NCBI RefSeq assembly: GCF_000003815.2
Contig: NC_049981.1
Coordinates: 6,038,970 to 6,102,969, forward strand
Reading direction: 5' to 3'
DNA length: 64,000 nucleotides
DNA from: Branchiostoma floridae
Taxonomy: Eukaryota; Chordata; Leptocardii; Amphioxiformes; Branchiostomatidae
This document shows, in pieces, positions 47,501 through 64,000 of the stretch. The notes under the pieces are model-generated. The model had not been told where the DNA came from, ran no database searches, and saw nothing but the letters and a program-made list of their open reading frames with translations. How positions within the stretch are numbered: position 1 is the stretch's first letter; each line of letters starts with the position of its first letter. The translations under genes were made by a program, and so were the position numbers.

Positions 47501-50500
47501 CTAGACTGTGCCATGCCGGCAACCGATCTTATTTAGAGCTTCTAGGGAAGATGTAGCCCGGTTTACAAATCGCAGCGCGTATTGTATCGGCGGGCATACT
47601 GCCTTGGCCCGCCGAAGATATTGCCTGCCCGCCCGCCACAGTTGGTCTGTAGTGAACAACTCTGCACTACGTACAGTCCGTTGAATGGTCACTACACACA
47701 TAAAAATGTGTTAGTACATCCACTTGAATATGTTTGTTCCGTTATATTATCACAGACACGACAGTCTGTTCAGACTGTTCAAGACGGTGAAGCGGGAAAT
47801 GTCCCGAGTCGACGCGAAGGAGTTCGCCCGTCTCAACAACCTAGACGGAGACCCTGAGATGTTCGAACTCCTCCTTCTCGAGTCAAAGATGACCGTGCAG
47901 GTAAGACACGTCTTCAAGGACCTTGAGAGATAATAACCTTGAATGATACGGTCTCTTTTGCACCAGTGTCCGCAGGGGATGTAGCCCCGGCCGGGCTCCG
48001 AAGCCACAAATTTGTCCCTGTGGACTGCCGGCTATACCGAGAGGGACCCCTCGATGTTTTCACGACCAGGTCACGACGTCCATTGTAACCGGGCCCTGGT
48101 TTAATTTCAACCGCGAGTTTTGCAAAAATCCGACCGTTCCCCAAAATAGCCTAGTAGCTGCAGGCTCCCGTGAAGCACCAAAAGGGAGAAAAATCGGCTC
48201 GAATTTAAATCAGTAATTAGTAATTTAATAACGCATCCCTAGGCTCACATACAGTTACTGGATAGTTTTTAAGACCATGTAGTTTTTAAACTAACGATAT
48301 TATTTCCATTTTTTTTCAGGAAATGATGACCTTGCTCCCCTGCACCATCAACTTGGACTGGTCCATTCAGCGCAGGATCGCAGTAGCAAGAAGTGTTATC
48401 ATTGGGGAATAGACGAAGGAAGTATCATCGTAATGCTTACTGTGTGTAATGAACTATGAAGTTTATCATGTAACATTAAAACAAGGTTCACAGCCATTTG
48501 TTTTCACAACACGTCGTTTGGATGAGCACCTGTTATTGGCTATTGAAAAACATGTTGTTGTGAATAATGTTTCTTATTCATCCATATGGCAACTTGATTT
48601 AATTATTCACGGATGTAATGATGTGAGATTTCAGGTATATTAAGTAGATCCATGTACACTTTGCAAGTTGATGTGAGGGTGGCCCATAAAATTACGCACC
48701 AATAAGATTTCACTAGAAACTGAGCATACTATCATGAGGTTGACTGGTGAGCACATTTAAGTATCATCTAGCAAGTTTTTATTCTAGAATTTTAGCAATG
48801 TAGTTCTTAATGTGTTAGAGGTTTAGAAAAGGTTTGGTTAATAACAAGTGTTGTTTGATAATTTTACTTTCTTGAGTAATTTCTTTTATCGTTTTTATCA
48901 ATGTACTGTATGTCTAAGTTTCATAAACAAAACGTTTATCGAATACATGTATGTTTTTATCGGCATCCGATGGACGAACAGCATCGTGTTTTTGCTTGAT
49001 ATCTATGTGTTGTAAGTTTCAAGCGATAATTTGTACTTGTGCAGCTAGTAATAAAGTACTCATACGGATTGCTCTTTGTCGTATGCACAGTTATGAGTGC
49101 ATGCTATCATAGGACCATGCACACTTTATCATTATAACAAGCTGTTTATAGCAGGAAACGCATCAAATTAAGAGGGGCAACTTTTAACACTTGAGGTTGA
49201 TCCTACTCTCAGGAAGTTGACTATGAGTAGAGATGTTCTCTGTAATGTTTATCGTACTAGTAGGCTTATAGGGGACAATGCATATATATATATATATGGT
49301 TGTTCAATCACTTTTTTATATATCAATAATCTAGGTTTTGCTTTGCTTAATCCTCAGATCCGAGCGAAAAAAATGAAACTGTAGTTCATCAATTCACCTT
49401 TATTCGCGGGGTAACCTTATTCCGCTACATTTCAAACAAGAATATGAAGTCGACGGACGAGGTTCCAAATGCAGTGTTTTGGAAGTACATGTATAAAATT
49501 TGAAACCACCATCCGTCGATTAGATGCCTCGAATACCTTTTTTAAAATCTAAAAACGGATATAGGTTACCCCGCGGATAAAGGTGACCCAATGTTACTTG
49601 AAAGTGTCACAAAGTACGTACGGTTTGCTTTGGCAGGCGACGAAGCCGGTACCCTCCCCACGACACTCGCACAGGTAGCACCCGTCCTCAAACGTGTCTC
49701 CGACGTTGTAGGTATTGCCGTTGTGGATACAGCCATCTGGTAAAGACGAAACAATGTGTAGAATAAATATTCAAAGCTAAGTAAAATTAAACTTTGCAAT
49801 CCTTATGCTAATGTTTTATTGTGCCAAATTGATTATAAGGGAGGATTTGGTCCGGGTGCACCAGTTCTTTTTATATATCTACAAGACATGTCGACACAAT
49901 AATGTCATTACCTTAGTGCCGCCATCGGAAATGAAGACAAGAACATGGGTTTACTAAATAATTACAAGGAAACAAGACAACAATTAAGCAGAGCAAATGA
50001 AAATCAAATGATATGGTCTGAGGATATATGAAATTCTCTAAGTCCCTTCAGACTGGTATGATAATGTTTAGTCATCATTGAAGCGCCAGCTTTGATGACA
50101 GGATAGCACAAGAAAAACAATGAAACAAGGACCACTACGCTTCGGGGCGGACTAACTCGAACAAGGCTGGACACCAGACTAGAGTAAAACCTAGGCTACC
50201 GAAAGGTTCCCAATAGGGGGACAAAGTAGTGTGAAATCATCTTATCAATGTTCAAGAAAGCTTCGATAGACGATAGACATGGCACAACTTGTAACTGTTC
50301 GCCTATGCCTGTTGGGTTCACCTTTAATTTGCTTGTGCTACTCTCTAAACTAACGAAGACATACAGAATAGAAGGGCAAATACAAAATTTACTTAGCACA
50401 TACTGTGAAATGTTTTCATATCAAACAGTAGCGCACGATACGTCATCCCTTCCGTCAGGTTTAGATTTTCTCAGCCAATCAGGTGCAGTAACGAACCATA

Positions 50501-64000: not shown

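Follow-up and report, generated by a model that had tools for sequence, protein, structure and literature searches.

Amphioxus genes are known to carry tandem repeats that extend across exon-intron boundaries, and such repeats have been termed 'mirages', a name that originates from work on Adh3 (Canestro et al. 2002, as cited in PMC3087553). According to the sections of PMC3087553 on which we draw, either boundary may be involved: in the globin gene BflGb6 a mirage of 150-160 bp covers an intron 3' end and the 5' part of exon 2, and in BflGb9 one of 157 bp lies at the exon 2 3' boundary. The same sections describe the generating mechanism as unclear, place somatic instability of the Adh3 mirage on record, and contain a published model of intron gain that starts from mirages. 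PGBD5 and TnC are further mirage genes, and resequencing data strongly oppose assembly error as the source of the lancelet PGBD5 boundary repeats, as stated in the portion of PMC3902484 used here. The part of the amphioxus huntingtin study that was examined (PMC2206037) mentions tandem repeats, and boundary arrays are absent from that text.

A further system with some likeness to mirages is the TGD model of intron gain (PMC3443670), in which, as outlined in the available part of that paper, an exonic segment is duplicated and its two AGGTs come to serve as donor and acceptor for an intron that did not exist before. The arrays described below resemble this scheme as tandem copies of an AGGT-bearing segment, AGGT being repeated in one of them, the RING array. 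Unlike TGD, they add copies of a pre-existing boundary to the intron already adjoining it, with no new intron evident.

Here, we describe boundary arrays in a 64,000-nucleotide stretch of Branchiostoma floridae DNA, hereafter the window (C3:6038970-6102969 of an assembly of 513,431,437 bases in 431 contigs). As a first-pass annotation had reported, the window contains four donor-side arrays, each of which copies an exon end, its donor and the early intron. Three are located in a single RNF111/RNF165-like gene; the fourth comes after exon 2 in a fibronectin-type-I-like gene. The same annotation considered that no named class of repeat is defined in this way. The window arrays belong to a known and named class, the mirages (PMC3087553 and PMC3902484, in the sections cited above), and very probably represent tandem duplications of minisatellite type that extend across an exon/intron boundary by chance.

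Results and Discussion

Genes and boundary arrays in the window

The minus-strand RING-protein gene at the right-hand end of the window is RNF111/RNF165-like: its spliced C-terminus matches RNF165/ARK2C and Arkadia (phmmer best match 5d0i, RING finger protein 165, E=1.1e-34), and its product matches the PF13639 domain in a profile scan. Two FN1-like genes with introns (49.6-51.5 kb and 39.1-39.9 kb) and an intron-bearing KAP-NTPase gene (41.7-48.4 kb) lie to its left, and the left part of the window holds about seven LRR-type reading frames by a count made by eye, one of which was profile-scanned and is LRR. Seventeen donors and 18 acceptors were mapped by hand from the sequence, with no annotation behind them. 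Coordinates are those of the window unless a region such as L002 is named, and the window exons and boundary arrays discussed are on the minus strand.

The most regular array follows the RING exon (59776..59879; assigned by spliced translation, phmmer and PF13639), whose last 39 nt open the repeat unit. Eleven extra 63-bp units extend over 59068..59775, each composed of 39 nt of exon end, the donor GTGGGT and 24 nt of early intron. Counting the exon's own, the array comprises 12 units of 63 bp (TRF 59068-59813, 96% matches) with donors from 59776 to 59074, and the GT donor is kept in 12/12. Eleven donors read CAG/GTGGGT, with a U1 duplex of -10.9 kcal/mol, and the twelfth reads TAG/GTGGGT (-9.3). 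Interior units are near-identical. About 430 bp past the array lies a diverged remnant copy, GAAGATGTTAG/GTGGGC, with its donor at 58646 (58640..58690). Each RING unit also contains AGGT and a pyrimidine-rich stretch whose terminal TGCAG is ~14 nt upstream of the donor; this stretch is a candidate cryptic acceptor that could yield very small exons.

The other two arrays of this gene are less uniform. The His-rich exon, placed in the same gene by spliced translation, occupies 62175..62316, and decaying copies of its end and donor follow at 61651..62174 with spacings of 141, 133 and 115 bp; the interval 61,640-62,110, previously taken for the exon, holds these copies. The donors at 62034 and 61901 have mutated to ATAAGT and that at 61786 is GTAAGT, such that GT is lost at two of the four listed donors (copies 2 and 3) and copy 4 is intact. 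At the window edge, four units of 77-81 bp (63687..64000) belong to an array whose parent exon and further units are outside the window, in the adjoining region L002 (C3:6102500-6112400). The parent exon found there has the donor gtgagt and a phase compatible with the next exon (T/EPYMDGG). L002 contains 6.1 units including the exon's own (TRF 1655-2128), followed by Ns at 471-1654 and then by the window's four units; ten unit starts are listed for the whole array, counting the exon's own and one truncated unit.

Exon 2 of the first FN1-like gene (FN1a; Fn1_2 at 26.6 bits, slightly below the 27-bit cut-off) lies at 50798..50901 by spliced translation and ends in ...TGGMTY. The interval 50,425-50,798 had earlier been labelled as this exon; the exon is 50901-50798, and 50,425-50,797 is a degenerate array. 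That array (50426..50797) has units of about 61 bp that repeat the exon-2 end, donor and early intron. Most of its donor copies have decayed, and each unit holds one ATTGG (CCAAT) pentamer, six in total (50426-50819); these pentamers are candidate NF-Y sites near the 5' end of the gene.

An acceptor-side duplication, missed in the first-pass annotation, is present in the second FN1 gene. Its FN1-domain exon (39194..39334; PF00039, E=7.4e-08) is preceded by a copy of intron end, AG and exon start at 39423..39526, which shares 78% identity over 68 ungapped nt with the exon beginning at 39334. The duplication as a whole (39270-39526) has a 153-bp shift and includes the intron end and the first ~65 nt of the exon; its outer copy is decayed, with a TAG stop in frame with the exon. 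We also considered that this copy is a decayed whole FN1 exon. That possibility is rejected, since the match breaks off ~65-68 nt past the start of the exon, and what recurs in the 153-bp unit is the intron end together with the exon start.

Eight arrays, compared with one another, gave no cross-match at E<=0.01, which confirms that the window arrays are unrelated in sequence and rules out their common ancestry. Four separate boundary arrays in two unrelated genes thus reflect a recurrent process, as had been proposed.

Consequences for splicing

When the RING gene is spliced at its first donor, the frame is open through the last exon without an early stop. All 12 further RING donors, the remnant included, bring a TAG into frame seven codons beyond the first donor. 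An early stop also results from the His-rich GT donor at 61786, the only one tried, and from all three later sites tried in the FN1-like gene (one GC and two GT). In these three arrays, where downstream donors bring in-frame stops, we infer that productive splicing must use the donor nearest the exon.

Relation to published mirages

The window arrays share with mirages, as these are characterized in the published sections cited above, tandem units that span an exon/intron boundary. Both are minisatellite-like boundary copies (published units range from 10 to 160 bp) in which AG or GT is intact in many but not all units, exemplified here by the RING array (GT in 12/12) and the His-rich array (lost from 2/4). 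Both affect 5' and 3' boundaries, in our case through the donor arrays, the acceptor copy at 39270-39526, and arrays of both kinds elsewhere in the genome, and in both the boundaries of the cluster escape homogenisation. The genome is that of a cephalochordate, and published unit lengths and sides recur at two of its globin loci. A profile search of the assembly gave nine globin matches; one locus (L027) contains a 157-bp donor-side duplicate, the length and side published for BflGb9, and another (L031) an acceptor-side array of 4.2 units of 150-158 bp, with length and side as published for BflGb6.

Relative to the published accounts, in the portions examined, the new loci are the three RNF111/165-like boundaries, the two FN1-like genes, and myosins. 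A rate estimate, a comparison of donors with acceptors, and the synonymous signature described below are likewise absent from those portions. For the last of these, a search that covered papers outside subscription found no publication, and the word 'synonymous' does not occur in PMC3087553.

The myosin loci come from a sample of exon edges chosen blind to repeats by family searches. It consists of 63 exon hits (9/9 globin, 27/118 p450 and 27/142 myosin-head rows), and the p450 and myosin regions were picked by location before their DNA was inspected. Inspection of the sequences placed donor-side copies at L027, L053, L054 and L055, and acceptor-side copies at L031 and, twice, at L055. The L053 case rests on about ten exonic bases at the edge of an intron-spanning hit. 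At L055, the exon encoding the myosin P-loop (GESGAGKT) has an acceptor-side repeat of 22 units of 50 bp (L055:1232-2330, TRF). Many near-equal splice sites in tandem, such as the 12 RING donors and the 22 acceptor units of this myosin exon, constitute natural material on spliceosome choice.

Coding differences between copies and exons

The coding part of one copy was compared with its exon at each of ten boundaries, two of which showed no changes. This main test, which is post hoc, omits FN1a, which contains indels, and L053, where the exonic part is 10 bases long. Expectations were derived from a random model with the same base spectrum and from a decay model in which the exon changes synonymously only and the copy freely. 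The ten boundaries together have 33 synonymous and 16 nonsynonymous changes, compared with 13.2 synonymous changes expected at random and 19.9 expected under duplication followed by decay (P=2e-5), and 33/49 changes are at third codon positions (P=0.003 versus the decay model). All seven changes in the near acceptor copy of L055 are synonymous, as are 9/12 at L027. The RING array is represented in the main test by copy 12; with copy 2 in its place (0 synonymous, 1 nonsynonymous) the overall P is 0.0007. In a first test confined to the window and L002, from which four 'changes' in the truncated last unit of the upstream array were excluded, 19/47 differences in the donor arrays were synonymous (P=0.013 versus random placement), and 25/63 when the acceptor copy was included (P=0.003 versus random placement).

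Several subsets give a different picture. FN1a alone has no synonymous change among four, and its addition to the ten boundaries yields 33 synonymous and 20 nonsynonymous changes (P=0.003). The window boundaries by themselves (12 and 12, P=0.07) do not reject decay, and decay fits the older second copies (14 and 13, P=0.24). Arrays of at least three units, FN1a included, have 16 synonymous and 7 nonsynonymous changes (P=0.009), which become 9 and 7 (P=0.17) when the three-unit L055 is removed.

Differences that are mostly synonymous, beyond random or decay expectation, suggest that the copies differed as alleles from the start. We favour the interpretation, suggested by these codon comparisons, that near copies had a separate coding history before they entered the intron and would thus derive from another allele; the addition of FN1a and the other subsets weaken this inter-allelic reading. 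A plausible but tentative model is that unequal exchange between homologues creates or renews boundary arrays, with the intronic copies representing snapshots of other coding alleles. The first duplicate would be generated by such exchange in a very heterozygous animal and its copies would differ from birth, mostly synonymously, a step of which we are less confident than of the membership of the arrays in the mirage class. If the model is correct, introns would archive earlier haplotypes of their exons, and a substantial fraction of exon edges (7/126 in the sample) would carry such a record.

It is also possible that the arrays arose by replication slippage on a single chromosome and that their intronic copies then decayed neutrally, with no exchange between homologues. 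The near-identity of the interior RING units, the mixed changes in old copies (His-rich copies 3-4 and FN1a) and the several subsets in which decay is not rejected are consistent with such an origin. The near copies, however, are overly synonymous for it (33/49 against 19.9 expected; 33/53 with FN1a; 7/7 at L055), and slipped repair, which the first-pass annotation had invoked, does not readily yield this excess if it consists of one-chromosome slippage and neutral decay. The synonymous signature is a new and testable clue of moderate strength to the mechanism.

Mis-assembly, in which two haplotypes of a boundary are laid head to tail and appear as a two-copy 'array', would likewise produce mostly synonymous differences, and Ns are present inside the window-edge array (L002) and beside the globin duplicate (L027). 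It is a serious rival for the two-copy cases. As an account of the arrays in general it is unlikely: two haplotypes cannot give rise to the 12 units of the RING array, the approximately ten of L002 or the 22 of the myosin P-loop exon, and the PGBD5 resequencing data (PMC3902484) and the somatic instability of Adh3 (PMC3087553), in the sections cited above, speak against it.

Improbable, in our view, is retention by selection, either of the FN1-like array for CCAAT boxes near the 5' end of the gene or of arrays as intermediates in intron gain. In its favour are the persistence of one ATTGG per FN1a unit (n=6) although most donor copies have decayed, RING units that combine AGGT with a pyrimidine-rich tract lying upstream and terminating in CAG, and the mirage intron-gain model in the cited sections of PMC3087553; the CCAAT feature, as far as seen, is not common to the other arrays.

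Placement of arrays relative to donors, acceptors and chance

A junction in the window was counted as having a boundary copy if a local duplicate scoring >=60 extended across it. Copies are present at 3/17 mapped donors and 1/18 mapped acceptors (Fisher P=0.34), or at 4/18 and 1/19 (P=0.18) with the exon beyond the window edge, whose acceptor was unscanned and is counted as a miss. In the outside sample, 4/63 donor-side and 3/63 acceptor-side edges have a copy (P=1.0), rates that are probably underestimated because the edges are those of profile hits and are unannotated. Globin and p450 edges contribute 1/36 on each side, with none at the 54 p450 edges, and myosin edges contribute 3/27 and 2/27. 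The sample thus reveals no donor preference.

The first-pass annotation had proposed that duplication is seeded at the exon/donor junction and named equal frequency at acceptors as the observation that speaks against this; at the present sample size, the near-equal outside counts do so. That a process at the 5' splice site (an R-loop, a co-transcriptional nick or slipped repair) repeatedly starts duplication would agree with the higher donor count in the window and with three hit donors in one gene, but is very improbable in view of the outside sample, the P values of the window difference, the acceptor copy in the same window and the published globin cases, one per side in the cited sections.

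The background frequency of duplication was estimated from 20 stretches of 10 kb at arbitrary positions, one of them all N (180,390 non-N bases in total). Local tandem duplicates make up 17,576 of these bases (9.7%), very unevenly distributed, and 9.3% of positions are spanned by a duplicate (bootstrap 4-15%; median stretch 1.6%). The frequency of copies is not above the 9.25% background at outside edges (7/126, P=0.95) or at window junctions when the exon past the edge is counted (5/37, P=0.25). The window itself is below background, with 4.9% of its bases in local tandem duplicates, and evenly spaced control positions within it are spanned in 18/488 cases (8/469 outside the junction arrays), compared with 4/35 junctions (P=0.052). 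Given this lower and uneven background, a mild enrichment of duplicates at window junctions is not excluded.

Twelve tandem clusters were considered, namely the 13 found, minus a distant paralogue pair and the window-edge array, plus the TRF repeat at 46661. Four of the 12 include a mapped junction, against 1.56 expected under random placement (P=0.057), and within 38.9-63.6 kb the figures are 4/7 and 2.7 (P=0.25). The arrays exceed chance as repeats, and their placement at junctions is compatible with chance. Chance duplication combined with tolerance is sufficient, and junction seeding need not be assumed. Short tandem duplication is common in the genome. Where an event falls on an exon boundary, extra intron-side copies would presumably be tolerated as long as the exon-proximal splice site is in use. 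Such tolerance would allow donor-side and acceptor-side arrays to survive alike, and both are observed in the genome. The copies would then turn over as a minisatellite does, homogenised in the interior and decaying at the outer end. The donor/acceptor count and the codon-position signature make the origin of mirages a question that can be answered with phased genomes.

Other repeats in the window

Tandem arrays with no mapped junction are present at 33348-33821 (~90 bp), 55193-55569 (~45 bp) and 55827-56061 (~82 bp). LRR-type frames for single-pass proteins have C-terminal tails in which a tyrosine-containing 69-bp unit (PPIQNTAYNVNPN...) is repeated; the unit is similar in three places, 552-707, 15753-15925 and 23863-24018. 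The KAP-NTPase gene has a 21-bp coding repeat, GGGATCCAAGATGGCGGCCAA, at 46661-46733, within which AAGATGGCGGC, which we take to resemble the YY1 consensus, is present twice, at 46689 and 46710.
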